From assembly GCA_902768125.1 (NCBI GenBank), contig CACXKA010000006.1, forward strand, positions 186,001 to 250,000: a stretch of 64,000 nt of DNA, read 5' to 3'. This document shows, piece by piece, positions 48,003 through 60,884 of this stretch; positions within the stretch are counted from its first letter, which is position 1, and each line of letters opens with the position of its first letter. Both the position numbers and the translations under genes were made by a program. Under the pieces are notes generated by a model that saw only the letters and a list, made by a program, of their open reading frames with translations, had not been told where the DNA came from and made no database searches. This DNA is from an uncultured Bacteroidales bacterium (GTDB taxonomy: Bacteria > Bacteroidota > Bacteroidia > Bacteroidales > Bacteroidaceae).

Positions 48003-48098
48003 AAATGGTCGGCATATGTTTGAAAAAGATTTGGGAAACTGTTAGCGTATCTGTAGGTTAGAGAGAACTATAGGTTAAGCTTGGTTTTTCAAACGCAA

Positions 48099-48153
48099 GG
48101 TAACCTTGAGGTAATCTTGAGGTAATCTTGAGGTAACCTTGAGGTAATCTTGA
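48099..48153. repeat. Five 11-bp tandem repeats
   Basis: GGTAACCTTGA and GGTAATCTTGA units in the order C-T-T-C-T, exact 11-bp period, 27 nt before the tracrRNA terminator. The period equals about one helical turn. Confidence 0.9.
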
Positions 48154-48179
48154 GGCACACAACGAGCTGATCATACATC

Positions 48180-48262
48180 AAAAATGCCCCCGTTAAGGAC
48201 GAGGGCAAAACCTGAATGTTTTCACAACGGAATAATCCTTATTGTGATTTGCTTCAAATTAG
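48180..48262 (-). ncRNA. tracrRNA of the type II-C CRISPR system
   Basis: On the minus strand CCTAATTTGAAGCAAATCAC pairs with the first 23 nt of the crRNA-sense repeat, with a single bulged U. A CACAA...TTGTG stem with an inner GGA/TCC nexus follows, and then a GCCCTCGT/ACGGGGGC hairpin (48186-48206) with a run of T as terminator. Length is about 83 nt. Its promoter (48268-48299) has perfect TTTGG-N19-TAAATTTG form and directs a start right at the anti-repeat. The gene is divergent from cas9, the arrangement expected for a Cas9 guide cofactor. Confidence 0.93.
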
Positions 48263-48267
48263 GATGG

Positions 48268-48299
48268 CAAATTTACTACGTTTTTTGAATTTCTCCAAA
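48268..48299 (-). promoter_or_regulatory. Promoter of tracrRNA
   Basis: Minus-strand TTTGG (48295-48299), 19 nt, TAAATTTG (48268-48275). An exact consensus promoter. Confidence 0.88.
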
Positions 48300-48306
48300 T
48301 TTTTCT

Positions 48307-48337
48307 TGACAAAATCATTGCTTTTCCGTAATTTTGG
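48307..48337 (+). promoter_or_regulatory. Promoter of cas9-cas1-cas2
   Basis: TTG (48307-48309), 20 nt, TAATTTTG (48330-48337). It lies back to back with the tracrRNA promoter, 7 nt between the two -33 elements. The expected start is near 48343, giving a leader of about 32 nt. Confidence 0.78.
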
Positions 48338-48374: not shown

Positions 48375-51300
48375 ATGAAAAAGATTTTAGGCCTCGATTT
48401 AGGAACAACAAGCATTGGTTGGGCTGTAGTGAATGAAGCCACAAACAATGAAGAAAAATCTTCTATTGTCAAGTTGGGCGTTCGTGTGAATCCGCTAACC
48501 GTTGATGAACAGACCAACTTTGAAAAAGGCAGACCCATAACAACCAATGCCGATAGAACTTTGAAACGTAGTATGCGTCGCAATTTACAACGTTATAAAC
48601 TACGTAGAGAGAACTTGATAAATTGTTTGAAAGAGCATGGTTTTATCAATAACGATTCCATCTTATGCGAGAATGGTAATAGAACCACCTTCGAGACCTA
48701 TCGTCTTCGTGCTAAAGCAGCAACCGAAAAGATTAGTTTACAAGAACTGGCACGTGTTCTCCTAATGATTAACAAGAAACGTGGTTACAAAAGTAGCAGA
48801 AAGGCAAAATCCACCGATGAAGGCGAACTTGTGGACGGGATGACCGTTGCTAAAACACTCTATGAAGAAAACCTTACTCCAGGACAATACTCGCTCCTGC
48901 TTCTTCGTAACGGAAAGAAATATCTTCCTGATTATTACCAATCGGATCTTCATGCCGAGATGCTAAAAATATGGCACAAGCAACAGACATTTTATCCTGG
49001 CATCTTGACACCAGATTTCATGAAAGCACTTGAAGGCAAAAGCAAAACGAACACTTCCAAAATATTCTATGCGCGTTTTGGCATTCACACGGCTGACAAT
49101 AAAAGCAAGGACAAGAAACTACAAGCATACGAATGGCGTGTTGATGCCTTAAACCGACAATTAACTATTGAAGAAGTCGCATACGTTATTAGCGACCTAA
49201 ACGGACTTATCAATGGTTCAAGTGGCTATTTAGGAAGAATCAGCGATAGGAGTAAGAATTTGTACTTCAACAAGCAAACCGTCGGGCAGTATCTGATGCA
49301 GGAATTAGATAAGAATCCTAACTACAGCTTGAAGAACTCTGTCTTTTATCGGCAGGACTATCTTGATGAGTTTGAAGCCATTTGGAACACACAATCCCAA
49401 TATCACCCAGAACTCACGCCTGAACTAAAGAAAGAGCTGGGCAACATCATCATTTTCTATCAACGTCCTTTGAAAAGTCAAAAGGGCTTGGTGGCAATAT
49501 GTGAATTGGAGAACGAAAAACGGGAAGTAGAAGTGGATGGCGCTAAGAAACAGATTACAATCGGATGCAAAGTCTGTCCAAAGTCCTCACCCCTGTTTCA
49601 AGAGTTCCGCATGTGGCAACGCTTGAATGATATTGTAATCTATGATTCCAATGCAATGCCCGACCTTTTCGGAAATGGCAGAGCCACAAAACGGCGTTTG
49701 ACAGAAGAGGAGATGAACACTCTTGCTTTTGAACTAAGCATTAAAGGTAAAATGACCAAACAGCAAATGTTGAAGTGTCTGTTTGGAAAGACGGCTGGGC
49801 TTGACATGAACTTCAAGGACATTGACGGCAACGAAACGCAAGCAAAATTATTCGAAGCCTACCTCAAAATTGTAGAAATGTCTGGACATGAAGGATATGA
49901 CCTTGCCAAGTTAAATGCTTCTCAAATTTTAGATGTTGTTGAAAAAGTTTTCACAGGATTAGGTTTTAACACAGCACCACTCTATTTCGATGTATCCATT
50001 GAAGGGAAACAATTCGACAAACAGCCCATGTACCAGCTGTGGCATCTACTCTATTCGTATGAAAGCGATAATTCTAAAACCGGTGATGCCAGCCTTGTGA
50101 AGAAAATACGAGATATCTTCAATTTCGACAACGATGACTATGCCAAAGTCATTGCTGCTGTTTCTTTTAAGCCCGATTATGGAAGTCTCAGCGCAAAGGC
50201 TATTCGCAATCTTCTCCCAATCATGAAAAAAGGGATTGAATATAGCGAAGCCTGCAAATCAAAATATGGCACCCACTCTAAACGTTCGCTGACAAAAGAA
50301 GAACTTGATCAAAAAGAACTGAAAGGTTATCTGGATTTGTTGCCCAAGAATAGCCTTCGAAACCCAGTTGTTGAGAAGATATTGAATCAGATGATAAACG
50401 TGGTGAATGAAGTAGTCACAACATATGGTCCTATTGATGAAATCCGTATTGAAATGGCTCGTGACTTAAAGCAAAGTGCAAAAAAGCGTGAGGATAAAAC
50501 AAACGACATCAATGCGATGAATGCCTATCATGAGCAAATCAAAAAAATTCTCCAAGCCGCTCCTTTCAATATAGAGCATGTAAGTCGTAACGACATTATA
50601 CGTTACAAATTATATGAAGAGCTGAAAGAGAATGGATATAAAACCCTTTATTCCAACAAGTATATTCCCAAAGAAAAGTTATTCAGCCGCGAGATTGACA
50701 TAGAGCATATCATACCACAGGCGCGTTTGTTTGATGATTCTTTCTCAAACAAAACGCTGGAATGGCGTAGCATCAATCAAGAGAAAAGTAATGCCACAGC
50801 CTTCGACTATGTAAAAGGAAAATATGGAGAAGCTGGGGCGAAGGAATACAAACAACGTGTTGACGAATTACTCAAGCAGAAAGTTATCAGCAAGGCAAAA
50901 CACGCCTATTTGCTGATGTCAGTGGAAGGTATTCCAAGCAACATTCTTAATAGAGAACTAAATGACACACAATATATCGCAAGAAAAGCACGCGAAATAT
51001 TAGAGCAGGTTGCCAAAGTCGTTGTGCCAACTACTGGCAAAATTACAAAGCGGTTGCGAGAAGACTGGCAGTTAGTGAATGTCATGCAAGAACTAAACTA
51101 CCCTAAGTATCAGCAATTAGGATTGGCTGAAACTTTCGAAAAAGAATGGACAAAGCGTAATGACCACCGACATCATGCAATGGACGCATTGACTATCGCT
51201 TTCACGAAACTGAGCATTATTCAATATTTAAATAATCTGAACGCACGAAGCGACAAATCAAGTAGCATCTACGGCATTGAACAGAATGAACTGTATCGCG

Positions 51301-52505
51301 ACAAACATGGCTCTCTTAGATTTTTACCACCAATCCCATTGGATGAATTCCGAGCAGAAGCCAAACAGCACTTGGAACAGATTCTTGTATCCATCAAATC
51401 CAAAACAAAAGTGGTTACGCGCAACACCAACAAATCAAAATCCAAGAAAGTAGAGAAAGGCTATAACAAACGAGTACAATTGACTCCGCGTGGGCAATTA
51501 CACAATGAAACCATCTATGGCAGCAGCCAACGATATGTGACTAAAGAAGAAAAAGTTGGTTCTTCCTTTGATGTAGCGAAGATTTCCACCGTCGCGAACA
51601 AAGCCTATAGAGAGGCATTACAACGTCGTCTTGATACATATAATGGTGACGTGAAGAAAGCATTTACGGGCAAGAACTCTTTGGAAAAGACACCCATTTG
51701 GTTGGACGATTTGCACACACGCGCCGTTCCTATTAAGGTAAAGTGTGTAACTATGGAAACCATCTATACCATACGCAAACTAATCTCTAAAGATTTGAGA
51801 ATCGACAAAGTGATTGATAAGCATATTCAAGATATCCTCCGTACACGTCTCGAAGAATATGAAGGTGATGCTAATAAAGCGTTCTCTAACTTGGACGAAA
51901 ATCCCATCTGGTTGAATGAGGAGAAAGGTATTTGCATTAAGAGTGTTGCCATCAATGCCGGATTGAGTAAACCTGAGGCCATTCACGAGAAGCGAGACCA
52001 TCGTGGACAACTGATATTTAACAAAAAAGGGAACAAACAAGCTGCAGACTTTGTTCAAACAGCCAACAACCATCATGTTGCCATTTTCCGCGATGCAGAA
52101 GGGAAACTACAAGAGCACATCGTATCATTCTACGAGGCGGCCATGCGCGCCAACCAGGGATTACCCATCATTGACAAAGAATACAACAAGGCGGAAGGGT
52201 GGGAATTTCTTTTTACAATGAAACAGAATGAATACTTTGTATTCCCTGATAAAAACTTCTGTCCTTCAGAATATGACTTGATGAATCCAGAAAATAACGC
52301 CATCATTAGCCCACATTTGTTCCGAGTACAGAAACTCACCACCAAAGATTATTTCTTTAGACACCATCTTGAAACAACAGTTGAAGACAAAAATGAACTC
52401 AGAGAAATGACATGGAAGCGGATTCGAAACTGTGATGGACTAAAAGGTATTATAAAAGTTAGAGTCAACCACATTGGTCAAATCGTAGCTGTAGGAGAAT
52501 ATTAA
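48375..52505 (+). CDS. cas9: CRISPR-associated endonuclease Cas9 (type II-C)
   Basis: A 1376-residue RNA-guided nuclease. RuvC-I is LGLDLGTTSIGWAV with catalytic Asp8, followed by an Arg-rich bridge helix (RTLKRSMRRNLQRYKLRREN). RuvC-II is IEMARD with Glu693, the HNH core is DIEHIIPQ with His778 and LEWRSINQEKSN, and RuvC-III is HHAMDA with His934 and Asp937. All catalytic residues are present, so it should cut both strands. Size and gene set (cas9-cas1-cas2, no csn2 or cas4) place it in II-C. The C-terminal 440 residues would form the wedge and PAM-interacting region. The codon use is more AT-rich than in the neighbouring dcw genes, in line with horizontal acquisition. cas1 begins 1 nt after its stop. 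Confidence 0.98.
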   Translation: MKKILGLDLGTTSIGWAVVNEATNNEEKSSIVKLGVRVNPLTVDEQTNFEKGRPITTNADRTLKRSMRRNLQRYKLRRENLINCLKEHGFINNDSILCENGNRTTFETYRLRAKAATEKISLQELARVLLMINKKRGYKSSRKAKSTDEGELVDGMTVAKTLYEENLTPGQYSLLLLRNGKKYLPDYYQSDLHAEMLKIWHKQQTFYPGILTPDFMKALEGKSKTNTSKIFYARFGIHTADNKSKDKKLQAYEWRVDALNRQLTIEEVAYVISDLNGLINGSSGYLGRISDRSKNLYFNKQTVGQYLMQELDKNPNYSLKNSVFYRQDYLDEFEAIWNTQSQYHPELTPELKKELGNIIIFYQRPLKSQKGLVAICELENEKREVEVDGAKKQITIGCKVCPKSSPLFQEFRMWQRLNDIVIYDSNAMPDLFGNGRATKRRLTEEEMNTLAFELSIKGKMTKQQMLKCLFGKTAGLDMNFKDIDGNETQAKLFEAYLKIVEMSGHEGYDLAKLNASQILDVVEKVFTGLGFNTAPLYFDVSIEGKQFDKQPMYQLWHLLYSYESDNSKTGDASLVKKIRDIFNFDNDDYAKVIAAVSFKPDYGSLSAKAIRNLLPIMKKGIEYSEACKSKYGTHSKRSLTKEELDQKELKGYLDLLPKNSLRNPVVEKILNQMINVVNEVVTTYGPIDEIRIEMARDLKQSAKKREDKTNDINAMNAYHEQIKKILQAAPFNIEHVSRNDIIRYKLYEELKENGYKTLYSNKYIPKEKLFSREIDIEHIIPQARLFDDSFSNKTLEWRSINQEKSNATAFDYVKGKYGEAGAKEYKQRVDELLKQKVISKAKHAYLLMSVEGIPSNILNRELNDTQYIARKAREILEQVAKVVVPTTGKITKRLREDWQLVNVMQELNYPKYQQLGLAETFEKEWTKRNDHRHHAMDALTIAFTKLSIIQYLNNLNARSDKSSSIYGIEQNELYRDKHGSLRFLPPIPLDEFRAEAKQHLEQILVSIKSKTKVVTRNTNKSKSKKVEKGYNKRVQLTPRGQLHNETIYGSSQRYVTKEEKVGSSFDVAKISTVANKAYREALQRRLDTYNGDVKKAFTGKNSLEKTPIWLDDLHTRAVPIKVKCVTMETIYTIRKLISKDLRIDKVIDKHIQDILRTRLEEYEGDANKAFSNLDENPIWLNEEKGICIKSVAINAGLSKPEAIHEKRDHRGQLIFNKKGNKQAADFVQTANNHHVAIFRDAEGKLQEHIVSFYEAAMRANQGLPIIDKEYNKAEGWEFLFTMKQNEYFVFPDKNFCPSEYDLMNPENNAIISPHLFRVQKLTTKDYFFRHHLETTVEDKNELREMTWKRIRNCDGLKGIIKVRVNHIGQIVAVGEY

Positions 52506-52506
52506 C

Positions 52507-53430
52507 ATGATCAAGAAGACCCTCTATTTCGGAAATCCCATCTACCTCAGTCTCCGCAATTCACAGCTGGTACTGAAGACGCCAGATGCGGATAAATTGG
52601 AAGAGTCGTTCAAACGGGAAGCAGAACGGACGATTCCAATTGAGGATATCGGTGTGGTGGTGCTCGACAACAGACGCATCACCATCACAACAGGAGCAAT
52701 GGAAGCATTACTTGACAACAATTGTGCCATCATCACATGTAACAGCACAAATCTGCCGGTGGGGCTGATGCTGCCTCTGAGTGGAAACACCACACAGAGC
52801 GAACGTTTCCGCAACCAGATAGATGCGTCGTTGCCACTTAAGAAACAACTTTGGCAACAAACCGTCCGACAAAAAATCTTGAACCAGGCTACAGTATTGA
52901 ACAAGAACACAGGAGCAATCGTCAAGAATATGCAGGTATGGGCAAACGAGGTGAAAAGTGGCGACCCAGACAACTTCGAAGCCCGTGCTGCCACTTATTA
53001 TTGGCGCAACCTCTTCCCCACGCTGCCTAACTTCGTGCGTGGACGTGAAGGTGAGCCTCCCAACAATCTTCTTAATTATGGTTATGCCATCCTACGGGCT
53101 TGTGTGGCTCGTGGTTTAGTGGGAAGTGGACTCTTGCCAACCTTGGGCATCCATCACCACAATCGCTACAATGCCTATTGTCTGGCTGATGACATCATGG
53201 AACCATATCGTCCTTTTGTAGACGATCTGGTCATCAACATCATGCAACAATATCCCGATTACAGTGAACTGACACTTAGCATCAAGGCAGCCCTACTCAC
53301 CATTCCTTCACTTGACGTGATGCTAGATGGTAAACGCAGCCCGTTAATGATTGCTGTAGGTCAAACGACCGCAAGCCTCGCCAAATGCTTTAACGGCGAG
53401 TTGCGGAAAATCTCATACCCTGAATTATAA
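52507..53430 (+). CDS. cas1: CRISPR integrase Cas1
   Basis: A 307-residue type II Cas1. The active-site Glu lies in GREGEPPNNLLNYGYAILRA (about 179-198), and the His and Asp in GIHHHNRYNAYCLADDIMEP (about 216-235). With Cas2 it inserts new spacers at the leader end of the array. It starts 1 nt after cas9 and ends 9 nt before cas2, so it belongs to the same operon. Confidence 0.97.
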   Translation: MIKKTLYFGNPIYLSLRNSQLVLKTPDADKLEESFKREAERTIPIEDIGVVVLDNRRITITTGAMEALLDNNCAIITCNSTNLPVGLMLPLSGNTTQSERFRNQIDASLPLKKQLWQQTVRQKILNQATVLNKNTGAIVKNMQVWANEVKSGDPDNFEARAATYYWRNLFPTLPNFVRGREGEPPNNLLNYGYAILRACVARGLVGSGLLPTLGIHHHNRYNAYCLADDIMEPYRPFVDDLVINIMQQYPDYSELTLSIKAALLTIPSLDVMLDGKRSPLMIAVGQTTASLAKCFNGELRKISYPEL

Positions 53431-53439
53431 ATAAAGAAT

Positions 53440-53781
53440 ATGAGTAGTCTGTCACGTCTTACTGAATACCGAGTTATGTGGATTTTAGTATTCTTCGACT
53501 TGCCCACTGAAACCAAGAAGGACAAAAAACGATACACGGATTTTCGCAAGAAACTCCAATGTGACGGATTCACCATGTTCCAGTTCTCCATCTACATTCG
53601 GCACTGTGCCAGCAGCGAGAATGCAGAGGTACATTTAAAAAGAGTTAAATCTTTCCTTCCTGAGTTCGGAAAGGTCGGATTGCTAACTATAACTGACAAA
53701 CAGTTCGGAAATATGCAACTTTTTTATGGACAGAAACCAACCGAACCGAAAGCACCAGGTGTACAGTTAGAATTATTCTAA
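53440..53781 (+). CDS. cas2: CRISPR adaptation protein Cas2
   Basis: A 113-residue ferredoxin-fold protein with VMWILVFFDLPTETKKDKKR near the N-terminus (Asp in the FFDLP position) and the FQFSIYIRHC strand, as in type II Cas2. It bridges two Cas1 dimers in the integration complex. It ends just before a compact terminator that separates the cas operon from the array. Confidence 0.96.
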   Translation: MSSLSRLTEYRVMWILVFFDLPTETKKDKKRYTDFRKKLQCDGFTMFQFSIYIRHCASSENAEVHLKRVKSFLPEFGKVGLLTITDKQFGNMQLFYGQKPTEPKAPGVQLELF

Positions 53782-53787
53782 AAATAG

Positions 53788-53813
53788 AAAAACCAGCCGT
53801 CAAGCTGGTTTTT
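53788..53813 (+). terminator. Terminator of the cas operon
   Basis: AAAAACCAGC and GCTGGTTTTT form a perfect 10-bp stem with a 6-nt loop; the arms supply the A and T tracts, so it may work from both sides and also stop minus-strand array transcripts. Confidence 0.88.
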
Positions 53814-53890
53814 CCATGCCATATTCCCTTCTTTTTTATTTTCTAATTTCACCTACAACATCTTGTTAATCTGCAATTTACAAAGATTGT

Positions 53891-56240
53891 GGTGTATATG
53901 ACTCTGCAAAGATACTAATTTGAAAGCAAATCACAACCAGAGTGGCTCTCCATCGCATCACGGATGCGGTGTATATGACTCTGCAAAGATACTAATTTGA
54001 AAGCAAATCACAACGTCAGAGCCATACGGCTCACCAGTTAGTGGGGTGTATATGACTCTGCAAAGATACTAATTTGAAAGCAAATCACAACTCCCAACAT
54101 TCAGCTGAGCGTGAAGGACACGGTGTATATGACTCTGCAAAGATACTAATTTGAAAGCAAATCACAACTGACCGAGGTGGATATGGAGCGCACCTATTGG
54201 TGTATATGACTCTGCAAAGATACTAATTTGAAAGCAAATCACAACTGGTGTCTTGTTGCCCTTGCTGTCGGTCATGGTGTATATGACTCTGCAAAGATAC
54301 TAATTTGAAAGCAAATCACAACGGCATAATGCTAATCTTTTAACTGTTAAAGGTGTATATGACTCTGCAAAGATACTAATTTGAAAGCAAATCACAACAC
54401 GTTTCATTTTGTTATCTCGATTGTTTATGGTGTATATGACTCTGCAAAGATACTAATTTGAAAGCAAATCACAACAAGACAGTTCTTGACATTCGCTACG
54501 AAATTGGTGTATATGACTCTGCAAAGATACTAATTTGAAAGCAAATCACAACGGCTGCTTGTGCCACACGCAGCCTTACATCGGTGTATATGACTCTGCA
54601 AAGATACTAATTTGAAAGCAAATCACAACTTCGTTCAGGACAATCTCTTGTGAGGATACGGTGTATATGACTCTGCAAAGATACTAATTTGAAAGCAAAT
54701 CACAACTTGCGGCTAAAACCAAAGCGGAGGCACGGCGGTGTATATGACTCTGCAAAGATACTAATTTGAAAGCAAATCACAACTCTCCTTACACTCCTGT
54801 TTGGCAACAGTCAGGTGTATATGACTCTGCAAAGATACTAATTTGAAAGCAAATCACAACGGTTATTAAATGTCGCTGCTGGATGGTGTTGGTGTATATG
54901 ACTCTGCAAAGATACTAATTTGAAAGCAAATCACAACGGAATCCGTTCATCGCCACCAGTTCAAAGGGTGTATATGACTCTGCAAAGATACTAATTTGAA
55001 AGCAAATCACAACAGGGTAGCCTCTGTTCAGATTAAAACATTCGGTGTATATGACTCTGCAAAGATACTAATTTGAAAGCAAATCACAACCTGCTTGCCA
55101 TCGCTATGCTCATTGCGGTGGTGTATATGACTCTGCAAAGATACTAATTTGAAAGCAAATCACAACACCCAGTCCGCAGTCCTCGAAGAGTGCGAAGGTG
55201 TATATGACTCTGCAAAGATACTAATTTGAAAGCAAATCACAACGATGATGCCGATACATTAAACGGACGGTTGGGTGTATATGACTCTGCAAAGATACTA
55301 ATTTGAAAGCAAATCACAACAGCAGCCGCCAACAGGTCTTGCGTTTCCTGGTGTATATGACTCTGCAAAGATACTAATTTGAAAGCAAATCACAACGCAT
55401 CGACGTGGATTGTGGCTGCACCAACCGGTGTATATGACTCTGCAAAGATACTAATTTGAAAGCAAATCACAACAAATGTTAAAAAGTACCAAATATTACA
55501 CTTGGTGTATATGACTCTGCAAAGATACTAATTTGAAAGCAAATCACAACGGCCCGTTCACCGTCCCCTTGTTTTCCATGGGTGTATATGACTCTGCAAA
55601 GATACTAATTTGAAAGCAAATCACAACGCATCGTTTTTGATGAACGAAAGTGATAAGGGTGTATATGACTCTGCAAAGATACTAATTTGAAAGCAAATCA
55701 CAACGAGATGCCTCGGCTATACAACCTAAGCTTGGTGTATATGACTCTGCAAAGATACTAATTTGAAAGCAAATCACAACGTTAAGATTAAATCAGCTCC
55801 ATATTTCACGGTGTATATGACTCTGCAAAGATACTAATTTGAAAGCAAATCACAACAGAAGCCACCCCACTTGTTGGTCAAGCCGTGGTGTATATGACTC
55901 TGCAAAGATACTAATTTGAAAGCAAATCACAACTCCGTGCTCGAACACCGTCACCCACCGGTCGGTGTATATGACTCTGCAAAGATACTAATTTGAAAGC
56001 AAATCACAACATGTTTGGCATACAACTTATCCACATCATAGGTGTATATGACTCTGCAAAGATACTAATTTGAAAGCAAATCACAACTACGTATGCTACG
56101 ATGAAGATGCAACAGGGGGTGTATATGACTCTGCAAAGATACTAATTTGAAAGCAAATCACAACAGTGGCGACTCTGCTAAAATCGGTTCAAGGGTGTAT
56201 ATGACTCTGCAAAGATACTAATTTGAAAGCAAATCACAAC
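53891..56240 (-). CRISPR. CRISPR array, 31 repeats of 47 nt, 30 spacers
   Basis: Plus-strand repeats begin GGTGTATATGACTCTGC and end GAAAGCAAATCACAAC. I count 31 repeats, apparently all identical; 23 spacers are 30 nt and 7 are 29 nt. The crRNA sense is the minus strand, because that orientation (GTTGTGATTTGCTTTCAAAT at the repeat start) pairs with the tracrRNA anti-repeat. The repeat matches the 47-nt Bacteroides II-C repeat in its first 31 nt. Within it, TTG at positions 2-4, 19 nt, and TATCTTTG at 24-31 make a full promoter. Neither end repeat is degenerate, so the leader end is not obvious; by crRNA sense it should be the high-coordinate end. Spacer sources cannot be determined here. Confidence 0.98.
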
Positions 56241-56410: not shown

Positions 56411-56716
56411 ATGAGCAATACAGATTGTTTAAGCAAGTTTTCCAAAAATCTGTTTTGGGATGTCGATACATCTCAACTACAGATGAATGCTCATGCTGCC
56501 TATATCATCCAAAGAGTGATGGAATATGGACAGATGGATGATTGGCGACTCATTAATCGCTTTTATGGTCTTGACAAGATTGTGAATGTGTGTCAACAAT
56601 TACGAACGCTGGATCCCGTTTGTCTCTCTTTTCTTTGCACCATATCACACACTAAACCAGAACAATATCGATGCTATCACTTCAGACAGTCTACCCCAAC
56701 ACCTTGGAACTCCTGA
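56411..56716 (+). CDS. DUF6922-like protein, probable antitoxin partner
   Basis: A 101-residue protein (from the ATG at 56411, 20 nt after the -7 element; an ATG at 56351 precedes the promoter and is rejected). The sequence LSKFSKNLFWDVDTSQLQMN followed by AAYIIQRVMEYGQMDDWRLI resembles small Bacteroidota proteins (DUF6922) that stand before AbiEii-type nucleotidyltransferase genes. It overlaps the next gene by 46 nt, a sign of translational coupling. By position it should be the antitoxin or a regulatory partner; no biochemical role is known to me. Confidence 0.75.
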   Translation: MSNTDCLSKFSKNLFWDVDTSQLQMNAHAAYIIQRVMEYGQMDDWRLINRFYGLDKIVNVCQQLRTLDPVCLSFLCTISHTKPEQYRCYHFRQSTPTPWNS

Positions 56717-57297
56717 AAACCCTCATGCAGTTACCCATATTGAGCGACATGAGATTAGTGGGTGGAACATCACTTGCCTTACAATATGGGCACAGAAGGT
56801 CTGTCGATTTGGATTTCTTCGGAACGACAACCAGTGACGTTGATGAACTGACTGAAACGCTGCGGGAAAACGTTGGGGAATTAACTATGCTTTCAGCATC
56901 AAAAACGATAAGAGTTTATAATATCTCCAATGTCAAAGTTGATATTGTCAACTATATCTACCCTTGGATAGATGAACCCATCAAGGAGAATGGACTCATT
57001 CTGGCTTCTCCAATAGATATTGCAGCCATGAAGGTTAATGCGGTCATCGGTAGGGGTACAAAAAAGGATTTTGTTGACATTTATTACTTGTTGCAGCATT
57101 TCTCGTTTGACGATCTGATGCATTTTTACTTGAAGAAGTATTCTGACGGCTCTGAGTATAGAGCCTTGTTGAGCATGACCTATTTTGATGACGCTGACCC
57201 TCACCCCATGCCTTATATGTTCGAAGATATTAGTTGGGAAAGAATGAAGGAGTGCATCTGTATGGAAGTGGAAAAATACAATCAGCAACACGGCTAG
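56671..57297 (+). CDS. AbiEii/AbiGii-family nucleotidyltransferase (toxin-like)
   Basis: A 208-residue protein with the nucleotidyltransferase core MRLVGGTSLALQYGHRRSVD followed by LDFF (about 27-50), where GGTxLAL and DLDFF are the family's catalytic motifs, then KVDIVNY and IDIAAMKVNAVIGRGTKKDFVDIYYLL. Members include the toxin of type IV AbiE systems and MenT-like tRNA nucleotidyltransferases. With the small upstream gene it forms a compact toxin-antitoxin-like unit immediately beside the CRISPR array, consistent with a second layer of phage defence. Confidence 0.85.
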   Translation: MLSLQTVYPNTLELLKTLMQLPILSDMRLVGGTSLALQYGHRRSVDLDFFGTTTSDVDELTETLRENVGELTMLSASKTIRVYNISNVKVDIVNYIYPWIDEPIKENGLILASPIDIAAMKVNAVIGRGTKKDFVDIYYLLQHFSFDDLMHFYLKKYSDGSEYRALLSMTYFDDADPHPMPYMFEDISWERMKECICMEVEKYNQQHG

Positions 57298-60853: not shown

Positions 60854-60884
60854 CAAATTTAGATAATTATTTATATATCACAAA
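60854..60884 (-). promoter_or_regulatory. Promoter of the Cache sensor operon
   Basis: Minus-strand TTTG (60881-60884), 19 nt, TAAATTTG (60854-60861). Confidence 0.82.

Follow-up and report, generated by a model that had tools for sequence, protein, structure and literature searches.

Does a type II-C CRISPR array in the Bacteroidota depend on a single promoter outside it, or does each of its repeats bring a promoter of its own? The question is raised by an array in a 64,000-nucleotide stretch of DNA from an uncultured Bacteroidales bacterium (hereafter the window), whose repeats resemble the promoters around them. Zhang and co-workers are said to have found in 2013 that Neisseria meningitidis makes crRNAs from promoters in its 36-nt repeats, with a start inside the spacer. 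We propose that each repeat of the window's II-C array acts as a promoter for the Bacteroidota housekeeping sigma factor, with transcripts that start near repeat position 36 and run towards the leader. From sequence comparison, we put the probability of this reading at roughly 0.8. Each spacer probably has its own on-switch.

A promoter-like motif in every repeat

The locus combines cas9, cas1 and cas2, recognized by profile matches, with a tracrRNA (Table 1), and the stretch from cas9 to the array holds no other gene; this is the composition of type II-C, which excludes csn2 and cas4. The tracrRNA, encoded on the minus strand with its own promoter and a hairpin-plus-T terminator, establishes that strand as the crRNA sense. 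Two genes follow the array and point away from it, a gene for an AbiEii-type nucleotidyltransferase toxin (56671-57297) and its DUF6922 partner (56411-56716). Just beyond the tracrRNA terminator, an 11-bp tandem repeat, AGGTAATCTTG, is present in 5.3 copies (window 48098-48155).

Table 1. Features of the II-C locus, in window coordinates.
Feature	Position	Strand	Remarks
CRISPR array, 31 identical 47-nt repeats, spacers 29-30 nt	53891..56240	- (crRNA sense)	predicted transcription towards cas2
Candidate promoter motif, first repeat of transcript: TTG (56239-56237), N19, TATCTTTG (56217-56210)	56210..56239	-	
Candidate promoter motif, last (leader-proximal) repeat	53907..53936	-	motif search
tracrRNA	48186..48265	-	anti-repeat ~48242-48265; terminator hairpin ~48186-48206
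Predicted tracrRNA promoter, TTG-N20-TAAATTTG	48268..48298	-	box ends just 5' of anti-repeat
Predicted cas operon promoter, TTG-N20-TAATTTTG	48306..48336	+	
cas9 (1376 aa)	48375..52505	+	profile TIGR01865, 529.5 bits
cas1, type II family	52507..53430	+	profile TIGR03639, 312.6 bits
cas2	53440..53781	+	profile TIGR01573
Bidirectional terminator-like hairpin, cas2/array interval	53788..53813	.	-18.6 kcal/mol, z -6.5
Putative leader (spacer-integration end), 3' of array in crRNA sense	53814..53890	.	from array polarity in related loci and position

The reverse complement of the repeat is GTTGTGATTTGCTTTCAAATTAGTATCTTTGCAGAGTCATATACACC. In all 31 repeats it has TTG at positions 2-4, then 19 nt, then TATCTTTG at 24-31, exactly as the preliminary description of this DNA had placed them. 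Bacteroidota sigma-A promoters have their -33 and -7 elements 19-21 apart. The -7 element is TAnnTTTG and the element near -33 is TTTG or TTG, as described in passages of PMC7366714 and PMC9723704. The repeat offers TATCTTTG preceded by TTG at N19; the base before TTG is G, so the upstream element is TTG and not TTTG. The layout had also been likened to that of the window's tRNA, tracrRNA and other promoters, and we found it 5' of five genes: tRNA-Glu and the gene at 56411 (N19 each), and tRNA-Phe, cas9 and the tracrRNA (N20 each). With both strands counted, TTG-N19-TAnnTTTG has six matches in the window beyond those of the array; the whole genome has 206, of which the array supplies 31, and the backward pattern has 27.

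By sequence, then, every repeat contains a complete promoter motif in crRNA sense. It is of the TAnnTTTG type and its box stands 16 nt from the repeat end, whereas the Neisseria and Campylobacter pattern of a sigma70-type -10 at the repeat 3' end was not found. With a box that occupies -12 to -5, the position given in a section of PMC9723704, the predicted start falls near repeat position 36 and leaves 12 nt of repeat before the spacer. The start had earlier been put about ten bases ahead of the spacer; our prediction puts it at 12. The base at the predicted start is a purine in 35 of 51 repeats, which is weakly consistent with this position.

The motif is kept in related arrays

We compared three sets of Cas9 loci: (i) 80 Cas9-related loci, the best 80 of 180 found; (ii) 64 loci obtained by sampling 395 genomes of the GTDB phylum, in which 65 genomes lay above the Cas9 cut-off and 63 were used, the other two being the window's own genome and G200; and (iii) loci from the phylum of L085, a Chitinispirillia bacterium of the Fibrobacterota (150, later 167 genomes). 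Loci with no usable array, or that failed the II-C start filter, were dropped: 16 of 80 in the Cas9-related set (to which the window belongs, L085 being assigned to the Fibrobacterota), 10 of 64 in the phylum sample and 7 of 19 from the Fibrobacterota phylum. L231 was left out of the counts. We counted distinct repeats of at least 41 nt and called the motif perfect if TTG-N18-22-TAnnTTTG was present with any TTG in the first 12 nt.

The motif is perfect in 49 of the 60 distinct long repeats of the first set (with the window), in 5 of 24 from the phylum sample and in none of 8 from the Fibrobacterota phylum; L234 and L235, outside the counts, are also without the box. The 11 misses of the first set include L045 and L069, shortened consensus sequences that do hold the box. 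With only the first TTG allowed and repeats of at least 44 nt, 47 of 58 carried the motif against a mean of 0.3 in shuffles (maximum 3 for mononucleotide, 4 for Markov shuffles), and the box was on the opposite strand in none of these 58. Kept in so many Cas9-related repeats, and so far above shuffles, the motif is, as a pattern, not due to chance. Among the 30 repeats with a spacing of 19, the box is fixed and the nine positions past it carry 0.03-0.57 bits; because the selection of these repeats required the six defining positions of the box, what is informative is the contrast with the flank alone.

In L071 and L082 (and, with one mismatch, in L073, L083 and L084) the box lies further on and fits a second TTG, at positions 9-11, at N19-20 and not the first. 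L030 and L036 have an array that is inverted relative to cas9, in contrast to the other Cas9-related loci.

How far does the motif extend? As a measure of host promoter dialect we divided the genome-wide motif count by the count of the reversed pattern, after subtraction of array copies, and called ratios of at least 2.5 strong; ratios cover 76 of the 84 distinct long repeats outside the Fibrobacterota set. The motif is perfect in 38 of 42 of these repeats at ratios of at least 2.5 and in 10 of 34 below (Fisher p 4e-8), the ratio being only a rough measure because genomes of the Fibrobacterota set reach 1.0-2.9. The four exceptions in strong-dialect hosts are L066, L086, L174 and L140, the last of which has the box but CTG in place of TTG. 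The preliminary description had suggested a survey of Bacteroidota II-C repeats and expected the motif to be lineage-wide. The survey bears this out for most Cas9-related repeats but not strictly for the lineage, given its scarcity in hosts with a weak signal. What that description says of Bacteroides repeats is right for B. fragilis: the II-C repeat that PMC9367070 lists (Table 1) has the same first 31 nt.

Is the box kept for transcription or for integration?

At its two free positions, the box reads TC in 39 of 51 repeats; among tracrRNA promoter boxes the figure is 12 of 50. Among 76 non-array motif matches listed for the window's own genome, which are motif matches and not verified promoters, we counted by eye 7 with TATCTTTG and 28 with TACCTTTG. 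The free positions are thus more conserved than a promoter needs, which makes a second role possible, for example in integration, or else a tuning of promoter strength. The TATCTTTG block could be mainly a mid-repeat site that the Cas1-Cas2 integration complex recognizes or measures from, its promoter likeness being secondary, or it could do both jobs. Such a site would account for the over-conserved TC and would suit repeats that stay near 47 nt when they bear the motif (40 of 51). In addition, the Cas1 proteins of the Fibrobacterota phylum, which go with boxless repeats, group together on the Cas1 tree (3 changes), so that the box goes with the Cas1 lineage. We nevertheless consider this explanation unlikely. 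In the 42 strong-dialect hosts, a perfect box not being required, the TA..TTTG positions agree in 41, 42, 42, 42, 40 and 41 and the two n positions vary more (the compared segment was placed to maximise the match, which favours agreement). The distance from the box to the leader-side repeat end (12-17 nt, sd 1.02) is no tighter than the distance to TTG (sd 0.98), and the displaced box of L071 and L082 fits the second TTG at N20.

Predicted transcription towards the leader

Where would a promoter outside the array have to lie? Of 85 arrays complete at both ends, 38 have a degenerate terminal repeat at the crRNA 5' end alone and none has one at the 3' end alone (regular spacing required); by a looser count, 39 of 94 5' ends and 3 of 118 3' ends are degenerate. 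Since the degenerate, old end is the crRNA 5' end, the leader is downstream and cannot hold the array promoter. Both end repeats of the window's array are intact and its polarity was therefore read from these related arrays, which place the acquisition end in the direction of transcription. In 62 of 86 arrays, the 200 nt past the leader-side end contain a terminator-like hairpin that faces in crRNA direction (3.7% in shuffles), in 49 of the 62 at a distance of 51-57 or 64-78 nt; in the window it is ~74 nt beyond that end. The leader-side hairpin also occurs in the cas direction (53 of 86 arrays; 51 in both directions) and could serve the cas operon. A perfect promoter is found in the 150 nt upstream of the array in 1 of 28 cases, with a background of 4.7% per block, and the nearest minus-strand TAnnTTTG upstream of the window's array starts at 60861.

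These observations weigh against a second explanation, that the array is one long precursor from an outside promoter that is cut later, with the in-repeat motif unused. Its precedents are Riemerella anatipestifer, with 47-nt repeats, for which the relevant passage of PMC5006608 reports no promoter in the repeats and predicts one in the leader, and the introduction of a B. fragilis survey (PMC5704556), which has arrays in general transcribed from the leader. With a leader that lies downstream in crRNA direction, a terminator-like hairpin there that faces the transcript and upstream promoters at background, we regard a single precursor as very improbable. For the B. fragilis II-C type itself, the same survey states in a passage on this type that the leader could not be assigned, and CRISPR orientation tools are reported, in part of PMC12638026, to disagree on II-C arrays. 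The in-repeat motif would provide a rule for reading crRNA direction in such arrays.

We also considered degenerate 5'-terminal repeats as a natural experiment, as the first repeat needs only its promoter. They proved uninformative. Their 5' part is lost together with TTG (31 of 63 TTG positions differ) and their whole 3' half is kept, within which the box is preserved to much the same degree as its surroundings; selection for promoter function therefore cannot be read from them.

The box starts at the edge of the tracrRNA duplex

The window's anti-repeat pairs with repeat positions 2 to ~24-26. Over 61 loci, pairing ends at position 24 (median), where the box begins, and thus fails to explain the box. 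Of the 48 box-bearing loci, 31 have no more than one of the 8 box bases within the duplex, 43 have at most 3, and the other 5 have more than 3. It is hardly credible that the motif is a by-product of the repeat's common descent and of tracrRNA pairing, with no promoter function: the repeats are all alike at the 5' end and TTG is inside the pairing region, but the box is mostly outside the duplex and stays while its flank diverges, and the homologous Fibrobacterota-phylum repeats have kept the pairing region without the box.

The tracrRNAs of these loci have the same type of promoter. A box that points in the tracrRNA direction lies within 15 nt of the anti-repeat in 50 of 61 loci (window included), and none of the 61 has one that points the opposite way. 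For 43 of those 50 boxes the last base is 1-4 nt ahead of the anti-repeat, which would make the tracrRNA 5' end nearly that of the anti-repeat itself. A terminator-like hairpin follows the anti-repeat in 59 of 60 loci.

A model for expression of the array

How might crRNAs be made from such an array? RNA polymerase would bind TTG (-33) and TATCTTTG (-7) in every repeat, start near position 36 and copy the remaining 12 nt of that repeat, the spacer and then another repeat, of which the first ~24 nt would pair with tracrRNA. The tracrRNA itself would be made from a separate promoter that borders the anti-repeat, and RNase III or another nuclease may set the crRNA 3' end. Transcription would proceed towards the leader and end at the hairpin beside cas2. 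Conservation of box and spacing, the position of the box mostly outside the duplex, the direction, the hairpin and the lack of any excess of upstream promoters all support the per-repeat promoters of the preliminary description; use of the motif by RNA polymerase, the exact start and the processing are what we infer from them.

Promoters in each repeat are already known in other bacteria, and the TAnnTTTG version seems not to have been described before: in open-licence full texts, we found no description of the -33/-7 pair in these repeats. For N. meningitidis II-C, which had been invoked as a parallel, per-repeat promoters are indeed reported, as cited in passages of PMC7038990 and PMC5006608. 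The likeness would lie in a promoter in each repeat, short primary crRNAs and a streamlined II-C locus. However, the Neisseria element is of sigma70 type, an extended -10 within the final nine nt of the repeat (PMC7038990, same passages), whereas the window has a -33/-7 pair in the middle of a 47-nt repeat and a predicted start before the spacer. In Campylobacter jejuni II-C, dRNA-seq showed that crRNAs start at individual promoters whose -10 box lies in the repeat upstream (excerpt of PMC3656092); individual promoters are what we propose for the window, but the C. jejuni box is in the 3' part of the repeat and in another sigma dialect. Clostridium cellulolyticum transcribes its II-C array against the cas genes, and the repeat end is like an extended -10 (PMC7038990, in the section concerned); this sigma70-type element at the repeat end, active in E. 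coli, differs from the mid-repeat TAnnTTTG of the window.

In the same phylum, Hoikkala 2021 proposed TTG in the II-C repeats of Flavobacterium columnare as a promoter, and eight array reads support transcription towards the leader (passages of PMC8092290). A TTG promoter was likewise proposed for Flavobacterium psychrophilum, in which both halves of an IS-split array of 46-bp repeats are transcribed according to RNA-seq (passages of PMC10309648). Transcription towards the leader and a repeat-encoded promoter proposed from TTG are common ground with the window; however, those passages name TTG alone, 33 or 35 bp ahead of the spacer, and point out no in-repeat -7 box or TAnnTTTG.

If our reading is correct, many Bacteroidales II-C arrays express every spacer independently, in conflict with the prediction of a leader promoter in Riemerella. 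Expression of old spacers would not weaken as they come to lie further from a promoter, and an insertion that splits an array would leave it active.

Repeats and the promoter dialect of the host

Does the repeat follow the promoters of its host? The homologous long repeats of the Fibrobacterota phylum keep GTTGTGAATTG, the pairing region and, in 8 of 8, TTG, with the box in 0 of 8; TTG at positions 2-4 is thus undiagnostic on its own. At the sigma70 -10 slot, all 8 have TAnnnT (shuffle mean 2.9; 8 reached in 0 of 1000), these being few and related repeats. The presence of the box on one side and a sigma70-like TAnnnT in the Fibrobacterota on the other suggests a host-matched promoter. The Cas9 tree shows 7 changes of Fibrobacterota membership, with the box absent from every member (independent-pairs median p 0.125); host dialect versus box also gives p 0.125. 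On the Cas1 tree, membership changes 3 times, which leaves no power, and dialect versus box gives p 0.375. In both trees L069 was labelled box-free, its consensus being shortened. The host link is confounded with Cas1 ancestry, and the tree-corrected tests are not significant.

We therefore offer only tentatively, and at somewhat less than even odds, the idea that II-C repeats track the promoter dialect of the host. A strong TAnnTTTG genome would have the box ~19 nt past TTG; in the Fibrobacterota, where no TAnnTTTG was seen in repeats, the slot would be a sigma70-like TAnnnT; and in some 36-nt repeats it would stand at the repeat end behind a second TTG. A move to another phylum would thus be followed by a rewriting of the repeat, and this would restrict the bacteria in which a given CRISPR system can settle. 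Per-repeat promoters, if real, would let one test whether the sigma factors of the host hold back the spread of CRISPR systems from phylum to phylum.

Some 36-nt II-C repeats of the phylum sample (for example L155, L163 and L156) end in TACATT or TAGATT, 16 nt past a TTGnnn at positions 9-14, a sigma70-like layout; others end in GATATT. As a general feature of 36-nt repeats this layout was not convincing (10 of 24; shuffle mean 4.6, maximum 12). TAnnTTAG was tried as a second dialect in 22 genomes and rejected: once the array copies of G399 (42) and G154 (34) were subtracted, host use did not exceed the reversed control. The TAnnTTAG repeats are weak matches and no second dialect; the comparison genomes G400 and G597, without TTAG repeats, are above control for TAnnTTAG.

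Two loci of the window's family, L138 and L140, have 47-nt repeats with TATCTTTG and a Cas9 from a distant clade, beside one of the Fibrobacterota set. The L138 repeat differs from that of L017 at 2 positions, and in L138 and L140 Cas9 appears to have been exchanged under a nearly constant repeat.
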